From Gracilariopsis chorda (Eukaryota > Rhodophyta > Florideophyceae > Gracilariales > Gracilariaceae), in NCBI GenBank assembly GCA_003194525.1, contig NBIV01000495.1, positions 1 through 27,625 on the forward strand: a DNA stretch of 27,625 nt, read 5' to 3'. This document shows, piece after piece, positions 2,886-24,266 of the stretch (positions are counted from its first letter, which is position 1; each line of letters begins with the position of its first letter). The notes under the pieces were generated by a model, which was given only the letters and a program-made list of their open reading frames with translations, ran no database searches and was not told the DNA's origin. The translations under genes were made by a program, and so were the position numbers.

Positions 2886-2887
2886 AG

Positions 2888-2912
2888 GGGAGACTCCCTT
2901 AGTTAGTTTTCC
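2888..2912 (-). promoter_or_regulatory. candidate -1 frameshift signal, gag/pol of element A
   Basis: Same arrangement as in element B: GGAAAAC (2906-2912 on the minus strand), the gag TAA directly after it, then the stem GGGAG/CTCCC with a 1-nt loop 7 nt downstream (2888-2898). See the element B entry for the reasoning. Confidence 0.5.
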
Positions 2913-5076
2913 GCCTTCGGCGGTGGGTTGGTTTCCTCGACAACGAGTGCTTCATCCCGTTGACGGGGGTTTCTATCCGCATAAGCGGGGGTTGCAACGG
3001 ATGGTTGCGTGATCTCCCGAATCGGGGTGTATGAAGCTTGCCGCGCACGCGGGGTCTGTGGTAGGGCGTGAGAAAAGTCCGTTTTAGCACGGAGGTAGGA
3101 AGCCGTCGGGACGGAACGTTTCTCCTCTGGAGTGAGGGCCTCATAATTTGCCACCACCTTGGCCATATCCTTCAGTGAACAAATACACTGAGGAGAGGTA
3201 TGGCCATGGGCATAGCACAGGTGGCAAATGAGAGCCAGCACCGCGACACGCGGATTATTATTCCGAGTATCGGAGAAGCGAACCGCAGGGCGGGTGTCAG
3301 TCCATCCAGGCCGTTGATAACGGGATTGACCGTTTGAAAACGGGAGTCGTTGAGGTTGAACCCGACTGTTACCACCGTATAGAACGGGATCTTCTGTTCC
3401 CGTATCATGGGTCATCTCCGTCGTTGACGGTAACTCACTGGTGGGTATCGACACACCATCCCCCTGCGCTAAATGCACGGTATCAAATCTCTGTCCAGGG
3501 TTCCCATCCGCGGTGAGCGGGAGAGAGGAAGCTTCGCTTTCCAGCAACAACGCCTTGGCGGATTTAGACCGATTGTTCGGAGTTCTTGCACGAAGTGCAT
3601 CCCCTTCCGCTCGAGCGTGTTGGACCAGCTCGAGGTAGGTGATCCTTCGCTTGTCCTCCCGATAACGGGTAACTAAACTCCGGATTGCCGGGTCAAGACC
3701 ATCAATGAACATGGTACTGCGCTCCCCAGCGGGGTATACGTTACCACATCTGTGGAAAGCCTTGTTAAGGACGCACCGAGTAATCGGTCTCGGTCTCTCC
3801 AACACGCTGGCGTGTATCTCGCAAAGCGAGGATAGCCTGCTGAATAGCGGTGTTGGTGGCGTAGGAGCGCAGAAGATACTGCACAGCCTCCGGCCAGCAA
3901 GTAACTCCTCCCTCGGAGGCGCGAGAAGATCCTCTGACAGAGGTGTATTGGTCCTCCGCCACTCCCCGTAAGAAATACGGTAAAGCCAAATAGGCTTGTC
4001 CCTCATTCATACCGAGGATATCGGCCTCCGCTACAAAGCGGGATAGGAAATCCAGTACTAGGACTGGGTCCTCTACAGTAAAATACTGGTTGCGGAGCGA
4101 GAGCTGCATTCGCTTAATGCATTCTCGCACCTTTCCCGTACCACGGGGCGTACTTCCAAGTGACGAATCTTCAAGCCGGTAGTACCGGTATGATAAAAGC
4201 TTCCGGTAATCCGGGTTTGTCGGTTTCAATTCCCGAGACCGGGGTGTCTTCTCCCCTTCTGGCGGGTTCGGACCACACCTTCAGTGGCCGATGACCGCTT
4301 CGAGCGGGAGGAGTAGCCTCGCTTCTCGTCCTCCGAGTCGGAGTCCGAGGAGCTCGAGCTAACCGAATGGTTTTGGGATGAGTCCGAAGATGTCGAAGAA
4401 TCGGAGTCCGAATATTTTCGGTGATGTTTCCGTCGGTGACGGCGTTTCTTCTTCCCAGCAAGCTGGTCGTTGTGCGATGCCTCGTTTACCGGATCACCCG
4501 GGGATGGTTTGTCCATGAGGACGAACTGCTCCAGCGTCTCCAGGCGGGCACCAATCCGATCAAATCGGGCTTCAACTCCTTCGATGAAGGCGGCGGGTTG
4601 TCCCAAACTCTCCAACACGGAGTTGACGTCAGACCGTAAAATACGGAGTTCCTCGGCGACCTCCTTTACGGGGTTGCCGAGACCACCTCTTGGAGGGATT
4701 TTAGTTCCCCTACAAGGGTGTCATGGGCGGTCCACAGAGCGCGGACCTGGGATTCCAGGGAAGTCCCCTGGGGGGTGTTATCGCCCGTTCCACGGGGGCT
4801 TGAAGCCGCGACAGCGGGAGCAGGCCGGGGTGCCTGGGGCACTGCGGCAACAGCCGGAGTCGATGCTGCATTCCCCTGCGGGGGTGATAACGAGGGCAAA
4901 AGGAGGTTCCGGGGTTCCCGGTCGGGGGTATCATTCCGCGATGAAGCGGCACCAGCACGGCTGGAACTTGTCCGTATAGGGATACGGGGTACGAACCGAA
5001 CTTCGGAAGTGTCCGCGTTGTCGCGGGAGCGACTACGCGTAACCACTGGCTCCGCGTCGGAGGGATTTCTCGACAT
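2903..5076 (-). pseudogene. gag of element A, broken by three 1-nt indels
   Basis: Starts at the ATG at 5076 and ends at the TAA at 2903-2905, matching the intact gag of element B throughout. Three single-base changes break it: one G lost in a G run near 4670-4673, one base lost near 4234, and one G gained near 3770. The net effect is one base shorter than B (2174 versus 2175 nt). The C-x2-C-x4-H-x4-C zinc knuckle is still readable near 3215-3175, and the Ser/Asp-rich tract near 4300-4420. The protein would be the structural capsid/nucleocapsid polyprotein. As written no full-length Gag can be made. Confidence 0.92.
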
Positions 5077-5160
5077 GAGAAAATACCGTTACAACGGGAA
5101 ACGATCACGGAACTTCCGGTAAATAAAAACAAACCTCGTAAGAGGGAAAACAAAAACCGA

Positions 5161-5178
5161 TTCTAGGTCGGGAGACCA
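5161..5178 (-). other. primer-binding site, element A
   Basis: Minus-strand TGGTCTCCCGACCTAGAA, three bases inside the 5' LTR boundary. Identical in elements B and C. Priming of minus-strand DNA synthesis by a host tRNA is the expected role. Confidence 0.85.
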
Positions 5179-5181
5179 CTT

Positions 5182-5986
5182 TGTGGTGCAATGCCCCAAA
5201 GGGGAAAAACACCGAAAGACGTCCGGGATCTTCCTCTCACGAGGTGAACCCAGTTGGGTAGAGCCCTCCCAGAGGTGTCACGGCGAAGCCGGTTTGTAAG
5301 ACCAGGGACACCTGTCGCGACTCGCGCAGGGAGGTGAAGGCGAAGAATCGGTATCCGCGTGAGCGGGGTGTGATCCTCAGTAGAGGTATGTTTCCACGTA
5401 AGTGGGGGTGTGTGAGCGGATGCGCACACGAGGCCGCGGATAGCGGGAGGTGCTACCCTAAAAAGGGGAAAGAGGAAGGACGAGTGGGTCGCGAGAGCGA
5501 CGAGTAGATACGGCAATGCCGGTGGACAGGACTCCCTATACAGGGCGAAACACCAATATGATTGGAACAATTAGTACTCCCAATGATGGGTCTCCTTTAG
5601 ATGTGCAAGGGGGTGAACTTCCGTACACTACGGTGCTTCCCTCCAAGGAGGAGTTGAGAACACGCGGAGGCGGTAAAGCTCAGAGCCAATTCCCCAGGTT
5701 GGGGTCCCTTGTTGGGGAAGGTTTACTGGTGCGACGGCAGTGCGCCGTCGCACTAAGTACTAGCTTCCCAGAAATGGGTGTGAAAATAATAAATAAAATT
5801 AACTAAAATACTCCACATTCCGTGGCAACATCCACTACTGTGGCCAACCGCCAATTGACCCAAAACCGTGTCCCACGTGTCCATACCCACCATTGTGGGC
5901 CGTAGTTCATATACACACTACACAACCGATAATATCGGGAAAGCGTTCAAGTACCAAGAATCCCTCCTTGAGGGCGTTGCACTACA
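5182..5986 (-). repeat. LTR shared by A (5' LTR) and B (3' LTR)
   Basis: 805 bp, matching 14100-14904 with only two substitutions that I can see by eye (5880 and 5900). On the minus strand it begins TGTAGTGCAACGCC and ends GGCATTGCACCACA, an imperfect terminal inverted repeat of 14 bp (12 matches) with TG/CA ends. The primer-binding site of A lies on its left and the polypurine tract of B on its right, so a single LTR serves two elements. An AT-rich patch at 5782-5812 may hold promoter or polyadenylation signals. Short hairpins occur along its whole length, for example CCCCAAAGGGG and GTCGCGAGAGCGAC. It holds no gene. Confidence 0.93.
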
Positions 5987-5997
5987 TATCCCCCCCT
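5987..5997 (-). other. polypurine tract of element B
   Basis: Minus-strand AGGGGGGGATA, directly abutting the LTR that begins TGTAGTGC. It is all purine apart from one T. This is the expected position and composition of the primer for plus-strand DNA synthesis. Confidence 0.75.
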
Positions 5998-6241
5998 AAG
6001 ACGGGAAAACGACCGCGGACGCGGAGGGTTCCCAGACGAAAATGGGTGATAAAAGCGCGTACGCCGTCTCCGGTTCTTCTTTCCTGGCATAGCAGGCTAT
6101 TGTAGTATAGTGTTGTGGGGGGCTAGCTGCTCCCTTAAATAAACTTTCCCGTTTAGAACGGTGAATCTCGTTTGAGTTCCCCGTCTTCGACGGACCTTGC
6201 CTTGTTATCCTTTCCTTTCGCTCTCCGCTCGCGCGGCAACG

Positions 6242-7357
6242 TTACCCAACTTGGGCATTAACCAGCGTGGCTGGAGCTGCAGTTCCCGTTTGACGGTGGT
6301 ATCGCACGACCTGCGACCGTGGGAGGTGTTACATTGGCTCCCACGTATCCCCACTGGGGTCGTACCCGTACCAGCGGACGCGGTATTGTAGAATACCATC
6401 CTGGTCCCAGGTGTGTCCGACAAGTCGGTCTACTACGAACTCTCGTTCGTAGACCTGCCGGCCGTGCCGGGTGGTGGTTGTAATCCCTGGCGAGGGTTGC
6501 CCGCGGTGCGGTATAATGTCCCTTAGCAGGGTGTTCGGCGATAACTCCGACGTTGCCGTGCGCTGTCCTAGTGGCCGCTGCTCATGCGGGAAAATATCCC
6601 TCAAGAGGGTGTGTGGTGCCACGGTTTTCACCGGCAAGTCGTTCCCCAGAGGGGTGTCGTTGTTCCCGTCTTCACGGTAGGCCGGGCGAACCGCCAGTCG
6701 GCGGGGGACTTGGGTTCCGCCTTCGCGGTTGAGCGCACGAACCGCGAGTTTGCGGGAAGATGACCGCTCCTGCGGGATCGGCATTTCCACAATCCCCTGG
6801 GGGGTCCCGTGCGACACGGTGATTGGGTGGCAAACCGCCTCCCTGCCAGGCGCACGAGCGCTCTGCACCATACGTTCCGGCGATGCCGTGGTGTCCCCAG
6901 CTACTGACGGGTTGCCTGGGGCTAACTCCGGTACACCGGTATTTTGGTCAAAATTCCCCTCTGGGGGGTTCCGGGCAGGTGCCGATGACACCCTTTTCAG
7001 GGGAATTGCCGCTGAGCGCAGTGCACCATCTCCGTGAGGAGGAGCAGCGTCCGGTACGACCGGTTTCGAGCGTGCGATGGCGCGCGTTATTCCCGAGTTC
7101 CTCGGTTCTTCGCCGCAGCGATGCGGGGGTTGGCGCAAATTATTCCCCGTAGCGGGGGCTTTGATTCCGTCAACGACGGGAGGCGTTTCCGGTGCTTGCG
7201 AGCCAGGGCTTAAAGCTTCGACTGCAGCTTGGCCGCCTTTTTCCCCAAGAGGGGTGTGGGTATTCCCCTGTGAGGCCGGCGTATCTGGGCGCCCCTTCTC
7301 CGCAGGGCGCGGGTCTGATCGACCTGATTGAACCGCTTCCGCGGGGACTTCCGCCAA
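6242..7357 (-). pseudogene. 3' end of pol B: low-complexity linker and chromodomain, with internal stop
   Basis: This frame carries a Pro/Gly/Arg-rich linker followed by a chromodomain at about 6332-6451: YEREFVVDRLVGH, then a YRVRWYGYDP core, then GDTWEPM. These match the aromatic and TWEP signature of chromodomains fused to Ty3/gypsy integrases, which target insertion to particular chromatin. A TAA at 6329-6331 stops it right after TWEPM. Reading on in the same frame gives HLPRSQVVRYHR and a second stop at 6242-6244, which resembles the usual chromodomain C-terminal helix. The TAA therefore looks like a nonsense mutation. The linker joins the integrase section in a different frame, with a shift somewhere around 7210-7400. 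Start 7357 is simply the first Met of this open stretch. Confidence 0.8.
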
Positions 7358-8346
7358 CGGCGGCTTCGAGGCATCGGGCGATTGCCTTCCGCTGCTGCGG
7401 TATTGGAGTGAGGCTTCTCGTTTTCCCGTGACAAACGGTGTATTTGCCGCTTTTGCGGGGCCTGCGCGTCTGGTTCCTGTTGCACAGCACTGCCCGGGAA
7501 CGGGGGATTAGTGTCGCGTGACATACTCCGTGCTCCACGGTCAGTGTTCCGTATGTTACGGTGTGTTTCCCGTTGCGACGGTGATATCGTTCCTCGAAAA
7601 CGAGTGTTCTCCTCCCCCTCCTTAGACGGAGCGGCGGGATAAGGGATAACATTCCCCGCCTGGCGGGTATAGATGCGCGCCAGTGGGGCAGACGTGGTAG
7701 GGGCGGGCGCTGAGGGGCCCGAATTACCCGGCTGAGCCGGTGAGTCCGACAGAGTCGGTAGGTCTGAGAGTCCCCGGCTGGGGTGTGGTAGTACCGTAGG
7801 TCTAGTACTCCCGGATTGTTCCGGTGTAGCGGAGTCCGTAGAAACGGGGTTGCCTGGATCCAGGACTACCTCTGACGAGGGAGGAGGGACAAGGACAACA
7901 CGATCACGGGAAATCCGTTCGTGCGTGTCCCCCATCTCTACCACGACAGTGTCGGTGTTAACAGAGATCACCTTGAAGGGTCCATCCGCCACAGGCGAGA
8001 GTTTGTGACGCTTCTCCCGTTCCGGGTTGTAGTATTCCTTCCTGATGAAGACGTAGTTATTTGCCCGAATCGGGGATGGTTTTCCTCGCACGCGAGCGTC
8101 AAAATCCCGCTTGTAAGCGGCTTGGGCCCGTGCCATAGACTTCCGCGCAGCGGGGACCAGCTTGGAAAGCCATCGCTTCCATTGCTGCCGGTAGATAACC
8201 ACAGATGGGAAATTGTCCAAGGTAGCTTGGGGTTCCAGCGCCACAGGCGGGGGTGTTCTAGATAGAACTAACTCGAATGGCGAAACTCCGGTAGTCCGGT
8301 GTACCTGCGTATTGTACGCGTAGGTTACCGCATCAGCGTAGAGATC
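7210..8346 (-). pseudogene. integrase C-terminal part of pol B, after an in-frame TAG
   Basis: Continues in exactly the same frame as the large pol reading frame after the TAG at 8347-8349. It begins DLYADAVTYAYNTQ, the segment that normally follows the catalytic Glu of Ty3/gypsy integrase, so the TAG sits inside the integrase core (probably a former Trp codon). A GPY/F-like module follows (ADGPFKVISVNTD). After it comes a Ser/Pro/Arg-rich linker of roughly 200 residues that ends at a stop at 7210, out of frame with the chromodomain. The domain identity is firm; the fusion to the chromodomain requires a 1-nt shift that I cannot place exactly. Confidence 0.82.
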
Positions 8347-11300
8347 CTAATTCGTTGGGTGGTCAGCGACGTAGGAACGTAACGCCGCGAGTAACGTCCG
8401 GTTAAACCGTTCAACTTGCCCATTACACTGGGGGTGGTAGGTAGTCGTGAACAAGTTCTTGACATCCAGGATGCGACAAACATCCTGGAAGAACTTGCTC
8501 ACGAACTGCTTCCCGTTGTCAGAGAGCACCTCTACAGGGGGACCGTAGACAAAAATCCAGTGCGTCACCAGAGCCTGGGCCACCGTGAGAGCGGTTATCC
8601 TCCGAAGAGGGACAGTCCGTACCAGCTTAGAAAAGCGGTCGGTAATGACAAGTAGAAACTTGTTTCCACGTTTCGTGGTGAGTAATGGTCCGAGAATATC
8701 GATCGCGATAAACTCGAGCGGCGCCCTTGCGGGGAATAGTTTCATCTTCTTCGCATTTTTGCGGAGTTTGACGCGATTCTTCGCGCATTCGCTACAAAAC
8801 CGCACAGTTGCGTAGCAATCCACCGCCATTGCGGGCCAATAGAAATCCCTTCGCAGGGTTAGGTAGAGTTTCCTCCCACCTGGGTGACCTCCAATGGGGG
8901 CGTATTGTGATAGATGTAACACCCGCGATTGCAGGGAATGTGGTACCACAATCTGTGGGCGGGCTTCGACCTTTCTTACGAGGTAGCCTTTGTCGTTTAC
9001 CCCGAAAGGGAGATCTTCACCACCGTTGATACGGGCACGAATTCTCGTACAGAATGGGTCGCCGAATTGTTCTCGGATCATTTCTTCCGGTGATACCGGT
9101 ACAAAGTTTCCCGGTAACGGGTTCTCAGATTTATCTCGCGATGCGAGTAGTTCGTCAAAATCAGCATCCTCGTCCCAGGTTTCTGGCCTAGCCTCGACGG
9201 CATATTCCGGATCATCCGGGTCTATAGCCATGAAACATGGGACTTCATCATCCTCCGTTGGGAGTGCTTCCCCACTTGTGGGTAACCGCGATAAAGCGTC
9301 GGCCTGGGTGTTCTGCGCACCCTTTTTATAAATGACTTGAAAGTCATATTCCGCGAGGCGGAGTCTCCAGCGCATGAGGCGTCCCGACGGGTCGGAGATA
9401 TTCATCAACCACCTCAATGAGGAATGATCCGTGTACACGGTGAAGTGAATTCCCATAAGGTAGGGGCGCAGAGTGGTCATCGCCCATACGACGGCGAGGC
9501 ACTCTTTCTCCGATACGGAGTAGTTCCGCTCATGAACATTGAGCGAACGTGACCAATAACCAATTGGATGTCGTTCCCCCTCGGGGGTGGTTTGAAAAAC
9601 AGCACACCCGACTTGGTAGTCGCTCGAGTCCGTATCTACGGAGTATGGCAACCCAAGTTTTGGGAGATGTAGGATTGGTGCTGATGTGACAGCCTCCTTT
9701 AAGGAGGTGAAGGCTTCCGATTGCTCGGGCGTAAATATTCCCAGTTTTGGGGGGTTCCCCTTTCGCAACATCGCGTTCAGGGGCGCTGCAGTATCCGAAA
9801 AGTTCGGGATAAACCGTCGATAGACGTTGACCAGCCCCAGAAAGGAGCGCAGTTCCGTTTGAGTACGGGGTTCTTTCGCCTCAACGAGGGATTTGACTCG
9901 AGCTTTCTCGATCGCTAACCGTCCAGGACGGATAATGTGACCCAGATACTTCACAGTATCTGTGAAAAACTCGCATTTCCTCAACTTGAGGGTAACTCCC
10001 GCATCGCGGAGTACGGTCAGCACGTCTCGGACGTGAGTGAGATGGTCGTCCAACGAGTTGGAGAAGATGATAATATCATCAAGGTAGACCAGACAACTCC
10101 GCCACTTAAAGCGGTTGAGTAGAATATCTACTGCACGCTGAAAGGTGGCGGGGGCGTTGGTTAACCCAAATGGCATCCGCTTGAAGCGGTACGTTCCTGC
10201 ATGGCAGGTGAATGCGGTTTTGTCGCGATCCTCCTGTCTGACAGGTACTTGCCAATATCCCCAATTGGCATCAAGGGCCGTGAACACGGTGGCGTCTCCA
10301 AGGGAGTCAATGCACTCGTCCATACGAGGGATGGGGTACGTGTCCCTAACAGTCACGGCATTGAGCCGGCGGTAGTCGACACAGAACCTCCAGGTTCCGT
10401 CGGCCTTTAAAGCCAGTACAACTGGGGATGCCCAGGGCGATTGAGCGGGCTCAATCACACCTGCGCGGAGCATCTTGTCCACCTGGGACTGCTCCTCTTC
10501 CCGAGCTTTCGGACCTGCCCTGTAAGGGGGTTGTGCAACCGGTCGCGCACCGGGGATTAAATCGATCCGGTGTTCCGTTGCATCAATCTCGCCAAGCGAG
10601 CCATCCCACATTGTGGTGAATTCCCGTAACATAGTACGGAGTTTGTCGCGGTGCGACTCTGGCACGTGGCTGAAGTCCAGCGCTTCAAGTGCTTTTTCCG
10701 GATCAATCCGGTCATTGCTCGATGGAGCATTGTCCTGTGGAACAGGTGTGGTTCGCAATTCCGAGTTACTCGGTATGTTCGACGCTGAAATAGCGGTTTC
10801 CTCCCCCTCCTTAGACTTGTTGTCTTCGGACGGCGGGGCGAACTCCTCAGAAGAGGTGGTAACTCCGAGTACATCGGCGGCTGTCATCTTCGTTGGCAGC
10901 ATTCCCATAGGATGGGGGGTTACACTCCCAATTACTTGGTGTTTGACCAGATACTGGGGGTGTTTGCCAAGGTTGGCAACCAATATCCGGAAAGGAACAT
11001 CCGGGGAAATGGAGACAATTCCATTAGCCAGCGCCAGCTGGGATTTCTCGTACAACGAGGCGAGGGGTTGTATAACCCGAAGACCGTGTTGACGGGAATT
11101 TACCTGTACCCAGACTTGGGACTCAGCCGGTATAGAAACCGAGGCAGCGACGCGGAGCTTGGTGGACTCGCGGGACGCGGGCGGTGGTTCCTGCGCAGCA
11201 GGGAGCGGAACTTGTTTCCGAGAGGACCGCTTTAGCGGGCGGCGAACAATCGGAACCGACGATCCGTCGTCAAGTTCTACACGCCTGAGGCGGGGCCTGA

Positions 11301-11802
11301 TTGCGTCGACAAATCTGTCGCAGTAATCACATTCCAGTATGACTGGTGCTGCCAATGAACGGCAAACGATGAAGTCCAACTTCACCACGGAGGTACCAAG
11401 TCTCACGACGAGGTCCACTGTGCCCACCGTTTGTAACGGGTTGTTATTCGCATCCGAAATGTCGGGGACCGCGTCAGAGCGGATACGCGACCGCACAAGC
11501 GGGGGTAACAATGATTCCACGACAAAGTTGGGGCCTGCACCTGTATCCAGGACGGTGAGAAACATCACCATAAACTGGGGGTCAAGGCCAAGGTCGGCAT
11601 AGACCTTATAATTGCGCTTGGCCAAGACCAAGACTCTACCGGGAATCCGGGGATTTTCACTCCATATCCACGGGCGACGCAACACACCGAGGTGCGCAGA
11701 GTCCGCGTCAGCGGTGTCTTTCCTTGAGAGGACTTTCACCGGGGAGCGAGGCGAGGACGCCTCGGGCGCCAACAGCCTCGTTTTTGAGGACGCCTCTCCC
11801 AA
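8347..11802 (-). pseudogene. pol of element B: protease, RT, RNase H, integrase (truncated at TAG)
   Basis: An open frame of 1151 codons in the -1 frame relative to gag. Domains in order: retropepsin with DTGA at residues 86-89; reverse transcriptase with FCVDYRRLN (473-481), the first catalytic Asp at 511 (TALDANWGYW) and YLDD at 573-576; RNase H with Asp 723/725, a Glu in SEKECLA near 765, Asp 792 (YTDHS) and Asp 835 (ADALSR); integrase zinc finger His 963, His 973, Cys 1003, Cys 1006; integrase core Asp 1035, Asp 1095, Glu 1131, with exactly 35 residues between the last two. The first residue is a TTG codon. The first real Met in this frame is residue 78, just before the protease active site, so translation must come from gag by frameshifting. 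It ends prematurely at the TAG at 8347-8349. Confidence 0.95.
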
Positions 11803-11804
11803 AG

Positions 11805-11829
11805 GGGAGACTCCCTTAGTTAGTTTTCC
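11805..11829 (-). promoter_or_regulatory. candidate -1 ribosomal frameshift signal, gag/pol of element B
   Basis: On the minus strand gag ends GCG GAA AAC TAA. The pol frame lies -1 to gag and is open through this point with no usable ATG upstream of the protease. The sequence GGAAAAC (11823-11829) sits directly before the gag stop, and 7 nt after it comes a perfect stem GGGAG-T-CTCCC (11805-11815). The same layout with the same stem and spacing recurs in diverged element C. The slip site is not a canonical X-XXY-YYZ heptamer: the A-site codon AAC re-pairs as AAA, but the P-site codon pairs imperfectly. Confidence 0.55.
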
Positions 11830-13994
11830 GCCTTCGGCGGTGGGTTGGTTTCCTCGACAACGAGTGCTTCATCCCGTTGACGGGGGTTTCTATCCGCATA
11901 AGCGGGGGTTGCAACGGATGGTTGCGTGATCTCCCGAATCGGGGTGTATGAAGCTTGCCGCGCACGCGGGGTCTGTGGTAGGGCGTGAGAAAAGTCCGTT
12001 TTAGCACGGAGGTAGGAAGCCGTCGGGACGGAACGTTTCTCCTCTGGAGTGAGGGCCTCATAATTTGCCACCACCTTGGCCATATCCTTCAGTGAACAAA
12101 TACACTGAGGAGAGGTATGGCCATGGGCATAGCACAGGTGGCAAATGAGAGCCAGCACCGCGACACGCGGATTATTATTCCGAGTATCGGAGAAGCGAAC
12201 CGCAGGGCGGGTGTCAGTCCATCCAGGCCGTTGATAACGGGATTGACCGTTTGAAAACGGGAGTCGTTGAGGTTGAACCCGACTGTTACCACCGTATAGA
12301 ACGGGATCTTCTGTTCCCGTATCATGGTTCATCTCCGTCGTTGACGGTAACTCACTGGTGGGTATCGACACACCATCCCCCTGCGCTAAATGCACGGTAT
12401 CAAATCTCTGTCCAGGGTTCCCATCCGCGGTGAGCGGGAGAGAGGAAGCTTCGCTTTCCAGCAACAACGCCTTGGCGGATTTAGACCGATTGTTCGGAGT
12501 TCTTGCACGAAGTGCATCCCCTTCCGCTCGAGCGTGTTGGACCAGCTCGAGGTAGGTGATCCTTCGCTTGTCCTCCCGATAACGGGTAACTAAACTCCGG
12601 ATTGCCGGGTCAAGACCATCAATGAACATGGTACTGCGCTCCCCAGCGGGGTATACGTTACCACATCTGTGGAAAGCCTTGTTAAGACGCACCGAGTAAT
12701 CGGTCTCGGTCTCTCCAACACGCTGGCGTGTATCTCGCAAAGCGAGGATAGCCTGCTGAATAGCGGTGTTGGTGGCGTAGGAGCGCAGAAGATACTGCAC
12801 AGCCTCCGGCCAGCAAGTAACTCCTCCCTCGGAGGCGCGAGAAGATCCTCTGACAGAGGTGTATTGGTCCTCCGCCACTCCCCGTAAGAAATACGGTAAA
12901 GCCAAATAGGCTTGTCCCTCATTCATACCGAGGATATCGGCCTCCGTTACAAAGCGGGATAGGAAATCCAGTACTAGGACTGGGTCCTCTACAGTAAAAT
13001 ACTGGTTGCGGAGCGAGAGCTGCATTCGCTTAATGCATTCTCGCACCTTTCCCGTACCACGGGGCGTACTTCCAAGTGACGAATCTTCAAGCCGGTAGTA
13101 CCGGTATGATAAAAGCTTCCGGTAATCCGGGTTTGTCGGTTTCAATTCCCAGAGACCGGGGTGTCTTCTCCCCTTCTGGCGGGTTCGGACCACACCTTCA
13201 GTGGCCGATGACCGCTTCGAGCTGGAGGAGTAGCCTCGCTTCTCGTCCTCCGAGTCGGAGTCCGAGGAGCTCGAGCTAACCGAATGGTTTTGGGATGAGT
13301 CCGAAGATGTCGAAGAATCGGAGTCCGAATATTTTCGGTGATGTTTCCGTCGGTGACGGCGTTTCTTCTTCCCAGCAAGCTGGTCGTTGTGCGATGCCTC
13401 GTTTACCGGATCACCCGGGGATGGTTTGTCCATGAGGACGAACTGCTCCAGCGTCTCCAGGCGGGCACCAATCCGATCAAATCGGGCTTCAACTCCTTCG
13501 ATGAAGGCGGCGGGTTGTCCCAAACTCTCCAACACGGAGTTGACGTCAGACCGTAAAATACGGAGTTCCTCGGCGACCTCCTTTACGGGGGTTGCCGAGA
13601 CCACCTCTTGGAGGGATTTTAGTTCCCCTACAAGGGTGTCATGGGCGGTCCACAGAGCGCGGACCTGGGATTCCAGGGAAGTCCCCTGGGGGGTGTTATC
13701 GCCCGTTCCACGGGGGCTTGAAGCCGCGACAGCGGGAGCAGGCCGGGGTGCCTGGGGCACTGCGGCAACAGCCGGAGTCGATGCTGCATTCCCCTGCGGG
13801 GGTGATAACGAGGGCAAAAGGAGGTTCCGGGGTTCCCGGTCGGGGGTATCATTCCGCGATGAAGCGGCACCAGCACGGCTGGAACTTGTCCGTATAGGGA
13901 TACGGGGTACGAACCGAACTTCGGAAGTGTCCGCGTTGTCGCGGGAGCGACTACGCGTAACCACTGGCTCCGCGTCGGAGGGATTTCTCGACAT
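11820..13994 (-). CDS. Gag polyprotein of element B (724 aa)
   Basis: The only intact full-length retroelement gene in the window. It forms the virus-like particle that packages element RNA. Features by residue: a Ser/Arg/Pro-rich N-terminus (1-105); a predicted coiled-coil-like helix (about 107-187); a basic patch KKRRHRRKHHRK (210-221) followed by a Ser/Asp-rich acidic tract (223-252); a capsid-like region starting ELKPTNPDYRKLLSYRYYRLE (about 283-500), which is the part best conserved with element C; and one zinc knuckle C-x2-C-x4-H-x4-C at 618-631 (CHLCYAHGHTSPQC), giving nucleocapsid RNA binding. The start is the ATG at 13994, 84 nt after the primer-binding site. It ends at the TAA at 11820-11822, where the frameshift signal lies. 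Copy A has the same protein broken by three indels. Confidence 0.94.
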   Translation of the reverse strand: MSRNPSDAEPVVTRSRSRDNADTSEVRFVPRIPIRTSSSRAGAASSRNDTPDREPRNLLLPSLSPPQGNAASTPAVAAVPQAPRPAPAVAASSPRGTGDNTPQGTSLESQVRALWTAHDTLVGELKSLQEVVSATPVKEVAEELRILRSDVNSVLESLGQPAAFIEGVEARFDRIGARLETLEQFVLMDKPSPGDPVNEASHNDQLAGKKKRRHRRKHHRKYSDSDSSTSSDSSQNHSVSSSSSDSDSEDEKRGYSSSSKRSSATEGVVRTRQKGRRHPGLWELKPTNPDYRKLLSYRYYRLEDSSLGSTPRGTGKVRECIKRMQLSLRNQYFTVEDPVLVLDFLSRFVTEADILGMNEGQAYLALPYFLRGVAEDQYTSVRGSSRASEGGVTCWPEAVQYLLRSYATNTAIQQAILALRDTRQRVGETETDYSVRLNKAFHRCGNVYPAGERSTMFIDGLDPAIRSLVTRYREDKRRITYLELVQHARAEGDALRARTPNNRSKSAKALLLESEASSLPLTADGNPGQRFDTVHLAQGDGVSIPTSELPSTTEMNHDTGTEDPVLYGGNSRVQPQRLPFSNGQSRYQRPGWTDTRPAVRFSDTRNNNPRVAVLALICHLCYAHGHTSPQCICSLKDMAKVVANYEALTPEEKRSVPTASYLRAKTDFSHALPQTPRARQASYTPIREITQPSVATPAYADRNPRQRDEALVVEETNPPPKAEN

Positions 13995-14078
13995 GAGAAA
14001 ATACCGTTACAACGGGAAACGATCACGGAACTTCCGGTAAATAAAAACAAACCTCGTAAGAGGGAAAACAAAAACCGA
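13995..14078 (-). other. 5' leader between primer-binding site and gag of B
   Basis: 84 nt, no gene. Contains short hairpins such as CCTCGTAAGAGG (plus-strand view) near 14053-14064. Packaging or dimerisation signals would be expected here, but none can be named from sequence alone. Confidence 0.6.
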
Positions 14079-14096
14079 TTCTAGGTCGGGAGACCA
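14079..14096 (-). other. primer-binding site, element B (tRNA-Tyr-like)
   Basis: Minus-strand TGGTCTCCCGACCTAGAA, starting 3 nt after the LTR's terminal CA. Its complement reads as a complete tRNA 3' end: C61, a T-stem strand CTAGG, an acceptor strand TCGGGAG, discriminator A73 and CCA. G72 (hence a C1-G72 pair) with A73 is characteristic of eukaryotic tRNA-Tyr, so that tRNA is the likely primer. The first PBS bases also pair with the LTR end (ACCAC/GTGGT around a 3-nt loop). Confidence 0.8.
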
Positions 14097-14099
14097 CTT

Positions 14100-14904
14100 T
14101 GTGGTGCAATGCCCCAAAGGGGAAAAACACCGAAAGACGTCCGGGATCTTCCTCTCACGAGGTGAACCCAGTTGGGTAGAGCCCTCCCAGAGGTGTCACG
14201 GCGAAGCCGGTTTGTAAGACCAGGGACACCTGTCGCGACTCGCGCAGGGAGGTGAAGGCGAAGAATCGGTATCCGCGTGAGCGGGGTGTGATCCTCAGTA
14301 GAGGTATGTTTCCACGTAAGTGGGGGTGTGTGAGCGGATGCGCACACGAGGCCGCGGATAGCGGGAGGTGCTACCCTAAAAAGGGGAAAGAGGAAGGACG
14401 AGTGGGTCGCGAGAGCGACGAGTAGATACGGCAATGCCGGTGGACAGGACTCCCTATACAGGGCGAAACACCAATATGATTGGAACAATTAGTACTCCCA
14501 ATGATGGGTCTCCTTTAGATGTGCAAGGGGGTGAACTTCCGTACACTACGGTGCTTCCCTCCAAGGAGGAGTTGAGAACACGCGGAGGCGGTAAAGCTCA
14601 GAGCCAATTCCCCAGGTTGGGGTCCCTTGTTGGGGAAGGTTTACTGGTGCGACGGCAGTGCGCCGTCGCACTAAGTACTAGCTTCCCAGAAATGGGTGTG
14701 AAAATAATAAATAAAATTAACTAAAATACTCCACATTCCGTGGCAACATCCACTACTGTGGCCAACCGCCAATTGACCCAAAACCGTGTCCCACGTGCCC
14801 ATACCCACCATTGTGGGGCGTAGTTCATATACACACTACACAACCGATAATATCGGGAAAGCGTTCAAGTACCAAGAATCCCTCCTTGAGGGCGTTGCAC
14901 TACA
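14100..14904 (-). repeat. 5' LTR of element B
   Basis: 805 bp, TGTAGTGCAACGCC ... GGCATTGCACCACA on the minus strand, the partner of 5182-5986. The matching of the copies stops exactly at 5986/14904, which fixes the outer boundary. An AT-rich segment (about 14700-14725) contains the only TATA-like stretch and a TATTTTAG word also found in the LTR of element C. There are no coding features. Confidence 0.93.
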
Positions 14905-15120
14905 AAATTGTCAACTTCAAACAGGTGGCGGCAGCAGCAAAACGTAATGTGATCGGTACAGACCCCCGTTTGAGGAATCCAACTTTTACCTCAACTCATA
15001 CGATGCGTCCACCGCCCATGGCGCCACCCCACCCATTTCGGCTTCGGCTGTGCAAGCAGCACTTGGTCGCGCAGCTGGCGCCCACGTACCGCATGTCCAT
15101 CCTGCACTGCGCCGCGCGCA
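14905..15120. other. host flank of element B, no recognised gene
   Basis: Unique sequence directly right of the 5' LTR of B. It leads into the COQ5-like fragment, but I see no convincing homologous reading in it. The target-site duplication of the insertion would start at 14905 (AAATT...), but its partner is outside the window. Confidence 0.6.
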
Positions 15121-15291
15121 CGCTTCCTCATGCGCGAGTTTGCCGCCGTGCATCATCCCATGCTGCGCAGCTTGTACGACGCGTATTCTTTCAATGTGAT
15201 TCCGCGCATTGGCCAGCTGGTGGCACAGCATCAGTTTGCTGACATGATCAAGCACTGTGGCTTTCGCCATGTAACTGTTACTGTGCTTTGA
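15121..15291 (+). pseudogene. C-terminal fragment of a COQ5/UbiE-family methyltransferase
   Basis: A frame ending at the TGA at 15289-15291 reads RFLMREFAAVHHPMLRS, then LYDAYSFNVIPRIGQLVA, then FADMIKHCGFRHVTVTVL. This follows the C-terminal part of COQ5/UbiE, the SAM-dependent C-methyltransferase of ubiquinone synthesis (normally a mitochondrial protein of about 270-330 aa). The family's LYDxYSFxVIPxxG motif is very clear. The conserved stretch that normally follows (SYQYLVESIRRFP, about 20 residues) is absent, the reading jumping from GQLVA to FADMIKHCGF, and the usual C-terminal GIVAIHxGFK is also missing. Upstream, the SAM-binding domain cannot be read. This is therefore a deleted relic, 216 bp from the retroelement LTR. 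The identification rests on motif recall, not on a search. Confidence 0.7.
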
Positions 15292-15602
15292 AACCACCTC
15301 ACTAGCTAGAAACTTTGTTGGGCGACCCTCGCCGTACTTTCAAATTGTGGTGGTTGATATACGCGTACCAGCTGCGACTATCATCAGTTCACACCGGACA
15401 TGTGGCCTAGTCGTTTTGACTATGACACAAATTAAGAAGGGTGCGGACATGCTTGCTCGTTCTGGTTCAGTGTCCACCTAATGGTCAAAGCAGAACACCG
15501 GTACGGTGATGTTGCCCCAACCATAAAAGGCGCGTAAGGAAGTGGATCATGACCAAGATGGCAAAGGTATGAAACCGGAAGGGATAGGCCATTGTGTATC
15601 AG

Positions 15603-15731
15603 ATGAGCAGGAAGATGACGGCAACCAAGAAGAGTGGTCATGTACGACCAGTTGGCGAACGAAAAGCTGGAAGGACCACTAGAAGACATGATGAGAAGAT
15701 CAAAGTGAAAAAGTTTTTGAAAAAGTTTTAA
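15603..15731 (+). other. short basic reading frame (42 codons), possible exon or relic
   Basis: From ATG 15603 to TAA 15729, rich in Lys/Arg and ending KIKVKKFLKKF. The composition and tail resemble a small ribosomal-type or nucleic-acid-binding protein tail, but I cannot name a family. Stops precede the ATG in frame. It could be a terminal exon, a gene fragment like the neighbouring COQ5 relic, or chance. Confidence 0.2.
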
Positions 15732-15763
15732 GGTTTTGATAAAGTTCTAGAGTAATTAATATT

Positions 15764-15779
15764 GACCTCATATGAGGTC
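15764..15779. repeat. 16-bp perfect palindrome
   Basis: GACCTCATATGAGGTC, self-complementary over its full length. First of a series of palindromes upstream of the orphan gene. Confidence 0.9.
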
Positions 15780-16008
15780 GCTGGTCAGATAGACAAGATG
15801 TGACCACCCGAAAGTGGCATATCTACCGCATCATGTGATGAAGTGACAGGGTTCACCCGTGAGCACTTGCGCTCTATCGGAGACCGTATCTCGTACCTTA
15901 TCAGGTATCATAACAGGAGAGGTAAGATCTCACTGCAAGCAGAAGGAGATCGGCCATCTGCTAAATACCCTCGACAGGTACTACTACGTGTGAATGGCTG
16001 TACCAGCC

Positions 16009-16046
16009 GTTCAGTGAAACGTGTACACGTACACGTTTCACTGAAC
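16009..16046. repeat. 38-bp inverted repeat (18-bp arms, 2-nt centre)
   Basis: Arm GTTCAGTGAAACGTGTAC at 16009-16026, centre AC, and its exact reverse complement at 16029-16046. It can form a perfect hairpin or cruciform. Confidence 0.95.
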
Positions 16047-16728
16047 CTGACGGTCAGAGTATCAATAAAGCACCGCCGGCGGCTCTGGCTGACCTCGTGC
16101 GCGGTTCACTACCCATTTTTCGTCGTGGAACGGTACCATCTGTTTGCACCTGTGTGGTGCTGCATGCACGCATCGCGATAGCGTCCCCTTTTACGGTTGA
16201 GCACCGCCATGCTGCTGCACTCGCTGATCAAGAGTGAACTGCTGCCTGTGATTAGCCGAATTTGTACTGCTTTTACTACAAGTAGATTCAGCCCTTTCCG
16301 CTGCAACGTCGCAATTCCGTGTCACACGTGGAAGCAGTTTGTACGCCTTCATACGCTCGCCCTACCCTTGTCGCATAACTTTGACTCACTCATCATATGA
16401 GCCCCCCCTTGGTGTATGAGCTTTAATGGCCACGTGGCCATTATAATCGATCGCATGTAAGCACTTTAGCTCGAGCCCCATCAGCTTTGAGTATGATACG
16501 GGTGTAAGTGCCTTTCTTACCAACTCGCCCGCCGCTTTTGAGCTACAGAGTAGCTACAGTTGTGCACCAACACGTACGCAGTCGCCATACCCATCCCCCA
16601 CCTTGACAACCGATCACACGACCTATATGTTTGTGCACAAACCACATTCTTTTGTCCGTACGGGCTACGGGTATCTTTGGTACCGGTACCCTCTTTGAAC
16701 GATCTCGCAACGTTCTTTTTCACGACAG
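16047..16728. other. intergenic sequence with several small palindromes
   Basis: No recognised gene. Perfect palindromes at 16424-16443 (20 bp), 16629-16642 (14 bp, GTTTGTGCACAAAC) and 16679-16690 (12 bp, GGTACCGGTACC). Short open stretches here look like chance. Confidence 0.5.
16424..16443. repeat. 20-bp perfect palindrome
   Basis: TAATGGCCACGTGGCCATTA, with a central CACGTG E-box-like core. It could be a dimeric transcription-factor site or a simple hairpin. Confidence 0.9.
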
Positions 16729-16783
16729 CCAGCACACGCACTCAATCCACTTCCAGTGGAAGTGGATTGAGTGCGTGTGCTGG
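16729..16783. repeat. 55-bp perfect palindrome (27-bp arms)
   Basis: The left arm starts CCAGCACACGCACTC (16729), there is a single central G at 16756, and the right arm 16757-16783 is the exact reverse complement. It lies about 250 bp upstream of the first ATG of the orphan gene. An uninterrupted palindrome this long is unexpected by chance. Confidence 0.96.
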
Positions 16784-17032
16784 AAGTCTTCCACGCTTCT
16801 CGTGGAACAGTCTCGTTCCATTCACGGCTCCCTCATCTCTTTCGCCTCTGAGACACGCAAATACCTAACTTACAAAACGAACCCTCAACAACTTACGGCT
16901 CCACTCCTTACACATCCATCACCTAGTCTCTTACATTAAAGAACAACCTTTTCTCCTACACCAAACTGCTTCCTTGTGCGCCACTTGCTTCCTCACTCGG
17001 CGTCAGAGACCCACATAAATAGCGTCCTGTCG
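16784..17032 (+). promoter_or_regulatory. pyrimidine-rich region upstream of the orphan gene
   Basis: A C/T-rich stretch between the 55-bp palindrome and the first ATG, similar to a fungal or algal 5' UTR/core promoter. No clear TATA box. The coding frame stays open back to 16976 without an ATG. Confidence 0.35.
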
Positions 17033-18904
17033 ATGCCTGCACCATCCTTTTCTGCCGCCACCACCACCAAACTTCCAGTTCTACACTCCACTCCAAACCA
17101 TTTCTCCACTGTCAGGTACCATCTTTCATCGCCCTCATTCCCCTCAGTACATTATCCATACCGCCTCACTCAGCCCTTCACAAGCTCCGACCTTGAAAGG
17201 TATACAAACTGTCTCCGTCAACCACACTCGTGCGAAACTATGTTGGATCAACCCAGAGTCGGCTTCTGCAAACGTCCGCTATGTGCCAGTTGTGCCCGGA
17301 ACGGCTTGCCAAGCACCTGTTGCTACGGCATCACTGAGACCCGATGGCTCACACCTCGAACTCAGCAAGTAATCTCTCACAATATCTGTTCCCCGGAGTC
17401 TTACCAACTACCCATCTTATCATATCACAACGCCATGCCGCGTACCGTTGCCGTCTTGTCGCAGATTGTCGCCCTGCACAACACCTACTACGGAGTGGCC
17501 ACACTGGAGATCGAGAAGGCCGGTTTGCATGATGCTCATTCCGAGTTCAATATTCGCTCACGCTGGGATGCACTTCTGGATCAGGGTCAATTACCACTCA
17601 TCATGTCGGCCGTCAACGCGCTCGAAGTCGTCGTCCAGGATCTTCGAGACATGGAGCAGTGCGGTATGGACGATACAGGTGATTTCCTAGCTGGCGAACT
17701 TGGTGAAGATCCGGGAACACTCAATCTGTTGATCATGTTGCTCAAGCTGATTAACGGCACTCCTTCGGAAGCAGACCTGTCAGAGCAGCTGCAACAGGCC
17801 ATCCGTCGATGGATGAAGTACAGATTCCGACATTCACCTAGTATCGATAAGCTGCTGAGAACCGAAGTTGACCGCCTGGTGCAAGGTCTTGAACATTGTG
17901 GTTTGCCAGTGCTGCACTACCTGGATGTGCGAGACGCCATACGGCGAGATCTGGGGGTCACAGAACTGGATCTCATCGCTCTGGCCATACACGCATGCGC
18001 CGAAGCGGGGTATGAAGCAACCGGTGACAAGTGGATTCGAGAAGTCACCGTGCAACTAAACAAAACGGCGAGGGGCGTCGTCATCACCCCAACACCGACC
18101 CCGCGAGGTATTATGCTAGGGCTCTTGGGACGCATGCTTGTGGTGAATGGTACTTCGGTGCACGGTCTTCCTACCAGTGATCGTTGGTACGCAGAAACAG
18201 ATGCGGAGTACTGCACCGATGCACAGTCACCACTCAGTCTGTTAACCGACCTGAGGTACACTGGTCGACACATGATCAGAATGCCTGTGCTTAAGGCAAC
18301 AATCCGTGATGTGCCGCGGTGGCTGACAAAGCTTCTGGAAAACCTCAACCGAGGACGACATCAACCTACCAAGCTTTCATATGCGGAATTGATGGAAGTG
18401 AAAGCATCTGATGTCTCCCCAGAAGGTAGGGACAGCGCACTAGTGTGGCAGCGGTTCTTCGAGCGGCTGCAGAAGGAGGAAGGTCCTGGACGAACCAGTG
18501 TGATTCGAAAAGTTGTGACCATGCGATCATTGGTGCGAATAGGAACACATGCTCAGGATGCCAATGACTACGGTAAATTACTTGCACAACGAATCATTGG
18601 CTCATTTGAGATCAATCGACTCAGTATTCGGGGGAAGACGTGGGAGATGGTGTTGTCTATCGATCAAGTTGGGAAGGTGGTATCGGAAACGAGGGGTACT
18701 GATGCACCGGCTGACCTTGTCGACCTGATCATCACTACCCTGAATGATACGCAGTCGCAGGACAACGTGAACGCCGTACCTAGCGGAAGTAGCATGGTAT
18801 ACATGTGGCCCATGATCCGTAGGGATGTCGGTGCGCATGCGTCCTGGCGACCGCAACCACAGTCAACATCTGGCATTCCGATTGCGTCCTCACTTCAGCC
18901 CTAG
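17033..18904 (+). CDS. orphan protein, unrecognised
   Basis: A single long frame of up to 623 aa from ATG 17033 (stop TAG 18902-18904), the only long host-type open frame in the window. I do not recognise its family. Later in-frame ATGs at 17240 and 17435 are alternatives; 17435 (context CGCCATGCC) starts right where the sequence changes from a Ser/Thr/Pro/His-rich, low-complexity stretch to protein-like helical sequence, giving 489 aa. Residues from 17435 onward are rich in amphipathic helix-like segments with many Leu, Asp and Arg, and have no signal peptide or membrane span. The upstream part carries a Cys cluster (CKRPLCASCARNG). Long palindromes lie on either side (16729-16783 and 19250-19308). 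After the stop the same frame is open again at 18917-19045, so the gene end or an intron is uncertain. Confidence 0.65.
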   Translation: MPAPSFSAATTTKLPVLHSTPNHFSTVRYHLSSPSFPSVHYPYRLTQPFTSSDLERYTNCLRQPHSCETMLDQPRVGFCKRPLCASCARNGLPSTCCYGITETRWLTPRTQQVISHNICSPESYQLPILSYHNAMPRTVAVLSQIVALHNTYYGVATLEIEKAGLHDAHSEFNIRSRWDALLDQGQLPLIMSAVNALEVVVQDLRDMEQCGMDDTGDFLAGELGEDPGTLNLLIMLLKLINGTPSEADLSEQLQQAIRRWMKYRFRHSPSIDKLLRTEVDRLVQGLEHCGLPVLHYLDVRDAIRRDLGVTELDLIALAIHACAEAGYEATGDKWIREVTVQLNKTARGVVITPTPTPRGIMLGLLGRMLVVNGTSVHGLPTSDRWYAETDAEYCTDAQSPLSLLTDLRYTGRHMIRMPVLKATIRDVPRWLTKLLENLNRGRHQPTKLSYAELMEVKASDVSPEGRDSALVWQRFFERLQKEEGPGRTSVIRKVVTMRSLVRIGTHAQDANDYGKLLAQRIIGSFEINRLSIRGKTWEMVLSIDQVGKVVSETRGTDAPADLVDLIITTLNDTQSQDNVNAVPSGSSMVYMWPMIRRDVGAHASWRPQPQSTSGIPIASSLQP

Positions 18905-19249
18905 GTTATCGTCTAGATCTTTTATTCCAGCGAAGATGACGAAATGCTAGCATTTCTTCGAGATCTTTCCGTAAATGAAGCCGAACGAAGCATTCCTCGT
19001 GTACTTTACCATTTCTGTAATTTGTTGTTGGTTCCCTTCTCAGTTTGAGCTAAACAGCTGTGGCGGAGGCCGCTTAGCAGATTGAGAACAATCTGTTCTG
19101 AGACTTTGGGAGCACACTCCGCCAGTGATACATAAAACTGGCTTGATGTTTTCGGAATTACGGAGTTAGCCTCTTGCACGGAGAAGTGCGTTGTAGGCCT
19201 CCGAACAGCTGAAGGACTGGAGTGAGATATTGATCTCAACGTTTCCAAT
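18905..19249. other. region downstream of the orphan gene, two weak coding-like stretches
   Basis: Plus strand 18917-19045 is open in the frame of the orphan gene and reads SSEDDEMLAFLRDLSVNEAE, which is protein-like. It is preceded by TTTTATTCCAG, a possible 3' splice site. Minus strand 19046-19272 reads FYVSLAECAPKV and LLSGL, faintly like HEAT-repeat proteins such as condensin subunit 1. Neither can be called a gene. Confidence 0.3.
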
Positions 19250-19308
19250 GAGCTGCAAGCATACACTATCAAACCGCGCCGCGGTTTGATAGTCTATGCT
19301 TGCAGCTC
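19250..19308. repeat. 59-bp near-perfect palindrome (29-bp arms, one mismatch)
   Basis: Arms 19250-19278 (starting GAGCTGCAAGCATAC) and 19280-19308 are reverse complements with one mismatch (G to C) around a single central C at 19279. Its partner in size is the 55-bp palindrome on the other side of the orphan gene; the sequences differ. Confidence 0.95.
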
Positions 19309-23455: not shown

Positions 23456-23510
23456 ACCGGGCTAATTAGCGGTCGGGTTACCCAGGGTGGTTTTGGGAAC
23501 ATTCATATTT
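23456..23510. other. junction between receptor relic and element C
   Basis: 55 bp with no assignable feature. A hairpin with arms AGCCC/GGGCT (23445-23463) overlaps its left edge. The target-site duplication of element C would end at 23510 if the LTR start is right. Confidence 0.4.
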
Positions 23511-24264
23511 TGTGGTACTTGCCTGGCAAGGGTGGTGGACACGTGGCTACAGCCCCGGCCAGGAGGCCCAAAACGGCTACTTATTTTAGTATAGTTTAGG
23601 GGTTAATTTTACTTAGGCTAGTGCACTACCTACTGTACTGCACTGAGCTAGTACTTGAGCGTCGGCCGCACGGCGGCGAGCTCACCAAGAAAAGTAACAA
23701 GAGTTCGGCTCTGACTCTATTCGCCATGCGAAGTGTCTAACTCCTCGCGGAGGTACACCGCTTGCCCGATAGTTTCACCCGACTCGCACCACCGAGGAGA
23801 CCGTGCTCGTCGTACCCAGTGGGTTGTGACCACTCGTGGTATTCATTGTTGTCGTGTGACCGCCCGTACAGGCCCTATCTCCGCCCCAGTTTTGGGTATT
23901 GATATTACCGACGTGTGTCGTGAGACCGTGAGACCATCCCTTCCCCTCATATCCCCTAACCGCCGCGCGGTGCGTGTTCGTGTGTGTGTATCGGCACCCC
24001 CTCCGGGGTCTGTTCCCGCTTTCCGCACGCCCCCGTCGGGTGGTCCCTTTCCCTCTTTTGTTCCACTGTTCGCAGGCTACTTCCGGACCAGCCGTGGTTC
24101 CGACCCGTTCTAACCCCTAAACCTCCGAGGTACATCCAGGCTCCCGACGGAGTTACACCCGTCATACGGGACACGGAGGGCTCTACCCAGCTGGGCCTAC
24201 CTCTCCAAGAGAGCAAGGCTTCGAGCTGCCTTGGGTGCCTTTCCCACACCGGGATTGCACCACA
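23511..24264 (+). repeat. 5' LTR of element C (left boundary tentative)
   Basis: The right end is firm: GGATTGCACCACA, two bases before the primer-binding site, matching the LTR end of A/B. The left end is proposed at TGTGGTACTTGCC, which resembles the reverse complement of the right end (TGTGGTGCAATCC) and gives 754 bp, close to 805 bp in A/B. An AT-rich TATTTTAGTATAG block near 23583-23596 parallels the AT-rich block in A/B. Confidence 0.65.
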
Positions 24265-24266
24265 AG

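Follow-up and report, generated by a model that had tools for sequence, protein, structure and literature searches.

Background

Arrays of short stem-loops spread along a genome have been described in several settings. In some plus-strand RNA viruses, genome-scale ordered RNA structure (GORS) takes the form of hundreds of sequential stem-loops in coding sequence, with poorly conserved positions and less variable paired sites, as set out in an excerpt of PMC7642675. The dispersed packaging signals of MS2, satellite tobacco necrosis virus (STNV), parechovirus, and hepatitis B virus (HBV) are many degenerate stem-loops that share a feature across the genome, and the mechanism proposed below would work like those of small RNA viruses (excerpt of PMC6281560). 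Hairpins generated by template switching have perfect Watson-Crick stems and compensatory changes, according to Monttinen and Loytynoja 2022 (PMC8794818). The element studied here is a Ty3 chromovirus in 27,625 nucleotides of the red alga Gracilariopsis chorda (contig NBIV01000495.1, positions 1 to 27,625), the whole of which is called the window. It occupies 5182..14904 with its sense on the minus strand, and its family is referred to as A. It shares with Ty3/gypsy chromoviruses the Gag zinc knuckle, the order of reverse transcriptase (RT), RNase H, and integrase, the chromodomain, and the long terminal repeats (LTRs), but it carries an array of 313 non-overlapping mini-hairpins with a span of 11-14 nt, which was absent from 9 other Ty3 reading frames tested.

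The array resembled GORS in the features given above and in the size of the folding-energy excess in family A; it differed in its 4-5-bp stems, fixed 12-13-nt span, CC...GG base, and lack of G.U preference, and in its presence in an LTR retrotransposon, including the LTR. As with dispersed packaging signals, many stem-loops with a common feature of sequence and structure were scattered along the element. That likeness is by analogy, since Gag binding is putative here; the shared feature lies at the stem base and not in the loop, the bearer is a retrotransposon, and about 220 sites were present above chance, compared with the 60 ordered RNA contacts named in an abstract on parechovirus. Unlike template-switch hairpins, those of family A were element-wide with a fixed size and a sequence-defined base, and recent changes in one copy pair resembled single substitutions. 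The first-pass annotation knew of no described element with such a pattern, and the titles and abstract openings of open-licence papers agreed, with no such pattern in red-algal LTR elements, retrotransposon coding RNA structure, hairpins or inverted repeats of LTR elements, or Ty3 packaging. The hairpins, far in excess of chance and seemingly preserved in evolution, suggest a recurring code for recognition that we do not know from elements of this kind. Dispersed assembly signals in RNA viruses and retroelements are hard to settle, the sites being degenerate and weak. In this case a single gene reached z 17, a very strong signal, which occurred in five families and was absent from the control elements tested, so that a direct test of dispersed signals would need no more than one protein and some short oligonucleotides.

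Hairpin abundance compared with chance

Hairpins were counted by a total span of 11-14 nt. The 313 non-overlapping hairpins of the whole element compared with 94.4 (standard deviation 7.8) in 20 mononucleotide shuffles, an excess of about one per 44 nt of element. Density was 27-46 per kb across seven segments, the maximum of 46 being a 65-nt stretch with 3 hairpins, and it was similar in the LTRs (34), gag (32), pol (31), and the 3' open reading frame (ORF; 33), in agreement with the earlier statement that both coding and non-coding parts are affected. The first-pass annotation had named equality with codon-shuffled controls or with host density as the outcome that would speak against it. The count for spans of 11-14 was 170 in pol, where synonymous-codon shuffles gave 41.8 (z 17.3); it was 96 in gag, with 28.2 in shuffles (z 10.5), and 39 in the 3' ORF, with 13.5 (z 6.7). 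The host-type control stretch at 14905..23455 had 11.7 hairpins per kb, and its two long ORFs were at chance level (z -0.5 and -0.2). When perfect stems of at least 5 bp with loops of 1-4 were counted, pol had 68 vs 12.9 and gag 43 vs 10.1 in synonymous shuffles, and the two host ORFs were again at chance. Family A gave 414 vs 100 by the type of count used for the host stretch.

All 11 inverted repeats claimed earlier in 9919-10269 were present, two of them beginning one base earlier than claimed; 10 had loops of 1-3 nt, for which the expectation from composition was 0.85, and a scan with arms of at least 5 and loops of 0-8 found 13. Examples on the minus strand, each of 13-nt span and written in plus-strand letters, are CCGTCC-A-GGACGG (9919..9931), CCGCTT-G-AAGCGG (10177..10189), and CCTGC-ATG-GCAGG (10196..10208). 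The LTR was likewise dense, with one centre per 27.0 nt in 5182-5990. The spacing in 9001-9590 was dense as claimed, but by our criterion it was one centre per 29.5 nt, not 23. The host-type region had been thought free of the pattern; 17401-17800 indeed had no repeats with arms of at least 5 and loops of 1-3, but the host stretch as a whole exceeded dinucleotide shuffles, as given below.

Chance, codon usage, and base composition were ruled out as causes by the synonymous, codon, and dinucleotide shuffles together with negative control elements of the same genome. Nothing favoured such ordinary sequence bias as the maker of the element's hairpins; the mild excess in non-coding host DNA (1.42x for the whole stretch) was far below that of the element, and the probability that bias accounts for the array is negligible.

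Structure of the hairpin unit

The hairpin consisted of a 4-5-bp stem and a 3-4-nt loop, and its span of 11-14 nt peaked at 12-13. Pol stems of span 11, 12, 13, and 14 occurred at 2.6, 3.9, 4.0, and 2.2x expectation, compared with 1.0-1.6x for spans 15-20. Because the hairpin has a fixed span, the extension of pol stems was far above chance only as far as 5 bp with loop 3, or 6 bp with loop 1, and at or below chance further on. Repeats with loops of 1 and of 2 nt were mostly this one object with a fixed span of 12-13 nt.

In family A hairpins of spans 12-13, the outermost pair was C-G in 75-82% and the next pair C-G in 64-78%. Among CC-N8-GG frames, 43 had no inner pair, 33 had one, and 76 had two (36.7, 25.8, and 4.5 expected), and there were for CC-N9-GG frames with 0 to 3 inner pairs 42, 43, 22, and 54 (27.2, 28.7, 10.1, and 1.2 expected); frames with 0-1 inner pairs were therefore at 1.2-1.5x expectation. 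The identity of the inner pairs tracked base composition, with AT, TA, GC, and CG at.15,.22,.34, and.28 vs.19,.19,.31, and.31.

The flanks were asymmetric. An A at +1 after GG was found in 71 of 127 CC hairpins (130 minus 3 near ends), but only 19 of these 127 had its mirror, a T at -1 (p 3e-8). Gag, pol, the 3' ORF, and the LTR/5' untranslated region (18 hairpins; T-rich on that strand) all had the same strand-specific tendency, which speaks against a site in double-stranded DNA, where symmetry would be expected. A strand test on arms of 6 bp had too little power, and comparisons of mismatch types (G.U and A.C) took its place. Linkers of 0-1 nt between hairpins were absent from family A (0 vs 10.5 expected), and a hint of strict periodicity near 20 nt in this family reduced to the avoidance of very short linkers. 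The hairpins had no consistent codon phase, though two span/phase classes in pol were fuller (13 and 12 of 45).

Distribution across related families

The genome searched comprised 91.3 Mb in 1081 contigs. The trait was present in five related families, four in this genome (A-D) and one (E) from another DNA source. All loci fetched for families A (n=8, including the window element itself), B (n=7), and C (n=23) were enriched over composition, at ratios of 5.9-6.5, 3.0-3.2, and 2.9-4.1, respectively. In synonymous shuffles of one representative each, z was 9.2 for B pol, 10.6 for C pol, 7.5 for D gag, 4.5 for the next D ORF, 7.9 for E gag, and 6.5 for E pol; 14 control ORFs (9 Ty3, 3 copia, 2 host) gave z of -1.6 to 1.9. 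The check on other family members and unrelated Ty3 elements that had been proposed thus separated A-E from the other Ty3 reading frames. A family-D relative lies within the window at 23456..27625 on the plus strand, with 107 hairpins (25.7 per kb); the gag count was 50 vs 19.2 in shuffles, and gag showed 50.5% identity in amino acids (aa) over 493 aa.

Hairpin ratios over composition were 0.9-1.7 at 20 copia loci and 0.7-1.6 at 26 of 30 loci fetched by integrase domain. The remaining four (L061, L072, L074, and L087), at 1.7-2.1, were rich in CC hairpins and were rejected as enriched other Ty3 elements, since each carries an LTR of family A, with 90-92% identity across 805-806 of its 809 bases. 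These four loci have other Ty3 integrases, and their CC hairpins lie within the LTR part, with one further hairpin of L074 outside it. A host-wide cause was rejected as the main one, because chance levels were found in this genome for host ORFs as well as for copia and the other Ty3 elements. One copia locus (L039) had an excess of 5-bp stems of span 17-22 (58 vs 32.7, z 3.9) with short spans at chance.

The preferred outer bases differed among families. A and B had CC; in C a pyrimidine preceded it, in D it lay one step inward, and E had a weaker preference. Flanking bases also differed. Families A, B, C, and E fell on one side of a branch in a 21-row RT tree, with support of 90/86 (not starred) and 91% of bootstrap trees; E covered only 30% of columns, and D was absent for want of an RT in hand. 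Family E is represented by L090, a contig binned with a Robiginitomaculum metagenome-assembled genome (MAG), and has a related Gag (35% identity over 645 aa) and Pol (48% identity); the MAG gave 12 matches to the window pol. L090 probably comes from the DNA of a different eukaryote. L089-L095 are Ty3-like genes on contigs in bacterial MAGs of GTDB and probably represent eukaryotic contamination. In the family-E pol ORF (L090 2448-4100), dUTPase matched weakly and short of the cut-off (E 0.0039). No relatives were found in the viral contigs searched.

Evolution of the hairpins and possible template switching

Hairpin positions were shared beyond background between A and B, which have 64% nucleotide identity (25/134 vs 9.4), between A and C (27/131 vs 8.4), and between B and C (25/103 vs 7.0), and sharing with E was near background. 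Double changes in stems restored pairing in 40 of 85 cases for A-B, 33 of 81 for A-C, and 39 of 66 for B-C, against 3-33% in partner-slid controls over all comparisons among the three families. Variability in stems was counted with the hairpin-defining copy left out, since its inclusion biases the result. At codon positions 1-2, close copies were variable at 3/617 stem sites vs 26/1576 in loops and linkers (p 0.036), and L005 differed from L004 at 6/618 stem sites vs 52/1575 elsewhere (p 0.002); stems were protected at these positions in all four comparisons (p 0.036 to 0.0005). The lower variability of stems together with the excess of compensatory changes supported evolutionary constraint on the stems. 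From A to B, one-sided pair changes numbered 340 and paired changes 40, and most A hairpins were not hairpins in B, so that sites are gained and lost at a maintained density.

The pol segment of copies L002-L004 was mosaic: L004 had 28 differences from the window copy in its first 2350 nt, and its last 949 nt were 82% identical to that copy. This points to recombination between subfamilies. In the 82%-identical segment 21 of 38 hairpins were shared vs 3.1 background. Over the first 2350 nt, with 28 substitutions, hairpins differed at seven places in this one copy pair, six with one arm substitution and one with two.

These changes bear on the main rival explanation, in which the reverse transcriptase of the clade copies one arm from the other within short quasi-palindromes and so perfects near-hairpins without any function being needed; the basal CC/GG would then be the re-annealing point. 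Strict Watson-Crick pairing, inner pairs proportional to base composition, the lack of G.U preference, directional flanks, and confinement to related families all fit such a process, and a mechanism of this kind has been reported for DNA replication (PMC8794818). However, imperfect CC-N8-GG frames with 0 or 1 inner pairs were not depleted, and one-mismatch stems were 14-24% above chance in A-E pooled. Six of the seven changed hairpins between L004 and the window copy involved a single arm substitution, one-sided changes far outnumbered paired ones from A to B, and density was similar in constrained pol and in the LTR. Template switching had been offered by the first-pass annotation as one possible cause; the strict pairing remains in its favour, but the undepleted frames, the mostly single-substitution changes in the one copy pair, and the similar density of coding and non-coding parts make it unlikely. 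If the cause were nevertheless mutational, a palindrome-writing reverse transcriptase would be at work on a scale that we have not met in descriptions.

Tests of plain RNA folding

In CC frames of family A with the other inner pairs formed, the tested pair was Watson-Crick in 314 of 369, G.U in 10, and A.C in 12. The same test gave 67 of 91 Watson-Crick in B (G.U 3, A.C 6), 27 of 49 in C (2 and 4), and 25 of 55 in D (5 and 3). Relative to shuffles, A-E pooled had perfect stems at 3.35x, single G.U mismatches at 1.14, A.C at 1.24, and other single mismatches at 1.19. Ten single-stranded RNA (ssRNA) phage genomes gave 2.08, 1.20, 1.07, and 1.05, respectively, so that the G.U signal of short stems was modest in this control too. 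At spans 16-20, the phages had perfect stems at 3.02, G.U at 2.05, and A.C at 1.65, compared with 1.57 for perfect stems, 1.45 for G.U, and 1.47 for other mismatches in A-E.

The folding energy of family-A pol was -104.6 vs -91.8 per 300 nt, 14% below synonymous shuffles. The deficit was about 14% for A pol and gag, 11% for E gag, 8% for D gag, and 5-6% for B and C pol, against about -1% for a host ORF. Folding energy below matched shuffles along the genome is what ordered structure should show; acceptance of G.U and stems of many lengths, also expected of it, were not seen.

Selection for folded RNA as such, for example for escape from small-RNA silencing, RNases, or sense-antisense annealing, would account for the many stem-loops with poor positional conservation (25/134 shared from A to B), and the 14% for pol is near the 15% given for a coronavirus genome in the excerpt of PMC7642675. 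Against it, there was no G.U tolerance and little enrichment of long stems, unlike the phages in the same test; the inner pairs had no GC preference, native context did not favour folding, and the oriented sequence motif is unneeded for folding. The lack of G.U tolerance, the composition-like inner pairs, and the unhelpful flanks make generic folding a poor explanation, and we regard it as very doubtful. Of the earlier suggestion of selection on RNA structure, the constraint on stems therefore stood, with lower variability and compensatory changes, but folding as such did not.

A proposed recognition array on single-stranded nucleic acid

The sequence-read base, the paired inner positions free of identity, the narrow size, and the strand-specific flanks point to a protein that recognizes a single-stranded molecule. 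That the trait is confined to related families, with family-specific bases, suggests that the element encodes this protein. Many Gag copies act on one genome, and this, together with the capsid-like core and conserved zinc knuckle described below, makes Gag the natural candidate. Our leading explanation, to which we give a probability just short of even, is that the hairpins are dispersed recognition sites on the single-stranded nucleic acid of the element, bound by an element protein, most likely Gag, in the manner of packaging signals; the binder, the molecule (RNA or cDNA), and the packaging role are what we infer from the pattern.

The element would accordingly carry an element-wide array of degenerate recognition hairpins. 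Their base (CC...GG, with 3' A and 5' A/C) may be read as sequence and the inner pairs only as Watson-Crick paired. The sites would lie on a strand-defined, single-stranded nucleic acid, most likely the genomic RNA in the virus-like particle and possibly first-strand cDNA. The putative binder, Gag/nucleocapsid, would package or condense the genome, with many weak sites acting together, so that the loss or gain of any one site would leave the density intact and the outer bases preferred could shift from family to family.

Several observations weigh against this explanation. The binding of protein to the hairpins is deduced from the sequence pattern, and the loops had no shared sequence motif. 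G.U was tolerated no better than A.C, though better tolerance would be expected of a genomic-RNA hairpin; only 45% of CC hairpins were in the local minimum-energy fold, and pairing probability was no better with native than with shuffled flanks (0.43 vs 0.50). Covariation between A and E was not seen (18/66), and stem protection at codon position 3 was weak, with one of four comparisons below p 0.05. Families B-E lacked a consistent linker preference, and E had 4 linkers of 0-1 nt vs 1.2 expected. L089, the nearest outgroup, showed no excess of hairpins (z 1.5), although by eye it has a motif like a zinc knuckle. The host stretch as a whole had 121 short hairpins vs 85 in dinucleotide shuffles, a mild excess that lay mostly in its non-coding parts.

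A different role would have the sites act on DNA. Mini-hairpins would then form in the first-strand cDNA while it is single-stranded, where nucleocapsid or integrase would bind them, or they would protect the cDNA from nucleases and from annealing to itself. DNA hairpins tolerate G.T wobble poorly, and loops of 3-4 nt suit them. The polarity fixed relative to the element and the lack of G.U preference fit this role, but they would fit equally an RNA whose binding protein is strict about pairing, and cDNA binding would itself be deduced; we consider the role rather unlikely. A broader alternative is that the array is tied to reverse transcription and not to RNA folding, the hundreds of strict Watson-Crick 12-13-nt hairpins with a family-specific base being written or required on cDNA. 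It is possible though not probable, and if true, it would imply either a polymerase that writes palindromes or a nucleoprotein coded by hairpins in a way that differs from known packaging signals.

Organization of the element and the window

On the minus strand, the family-A element had the order LTR, gag, pol ORF, 3' ORF with a terminal chromodomain, and LTR. The 5' LTR (14060..14904, inner edge approximate) contained 29 hairpins, 20 of the CC...GG type. The gag ORF of 724 aa (11820..13994) contained 70, the pol ORF (8347..11802) 107, and the 3' coding region (6329..8346) 67, 48 of the CC...GG type. The 3' LTR (5182..5990) is common to the element and the copy at 1-5181 and had about 28 (count for 5182-5999). 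The pol ORF had RVT_1, RT_RNaseH, Integrase_H2C2, and rve in this order in one ORF. The chromodomain PF00385 was found at about 6335-6439, in the ORF 6329-7357, with an E of 2.5e-8, passing its cut-off. The domain order, the 3' chromodomain, and the LTRs indicated that the element is a Ty3 chromovirus. Its closest protein relatives were from Agarophyton chilense, with 69% identity for pol and 51% for gag, in keeping with a gracilariacean host.

The predicted Gag core (residues 268-511) had a predicted local distance difference test score (pLDDT) of mostly about 90, with a mean of 59.3 for the whole model. Among the 50 listed of 382 structure matches of this helical core, all were retroviral, Arc, or PNMA2 capsids with probabilities of 0.96-1.00, and none of those listed was at E <= 0.001. 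The CCHC zinc knuckle (C618, C621, H626, and C631) was nearly invariant in 20 sequences; its codons (residues 618-631, 12102..12143, minus strand) lie within the longest hairpin-free stretch of the element, 12061-12157 (97 nt). There were six such stretches of more than 75 nt, and another, 8859-8945 (87 nt), encodes by eye the zinc-binding region of integrase; protein constraint is expected to be strong in both.

A second family-A copy at 1..5181 (minus strand) was hairpin-rich, at 27.6 per kb by the 5-bp-arm count. Including the shared LTR (1-5990), it was 99.1% identical to the main element over 6004 aligned columns, and the two are in tandem, joined at that LTR. A 301-base pol stretch had at least 40 copies at 100% (the best 40 of 987 candidates scored). 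No cellular RNA families or tRNAs were found in the window. In the host stretch, the non-coding parts 14905-16975 and 18905-21766 had 20.8 and 16.1 short hairpins per kb, and the parts with ORFs 7.8 and 10.1. The two ORFs there gave weak, below-cut-off matches to an APAF-1-like winged-helix domain (WHD) and a WDR3 beta-propeller, and the stretch also contained a few long inverted repeats, with arms of 10, 14, 18, and 27 bp.

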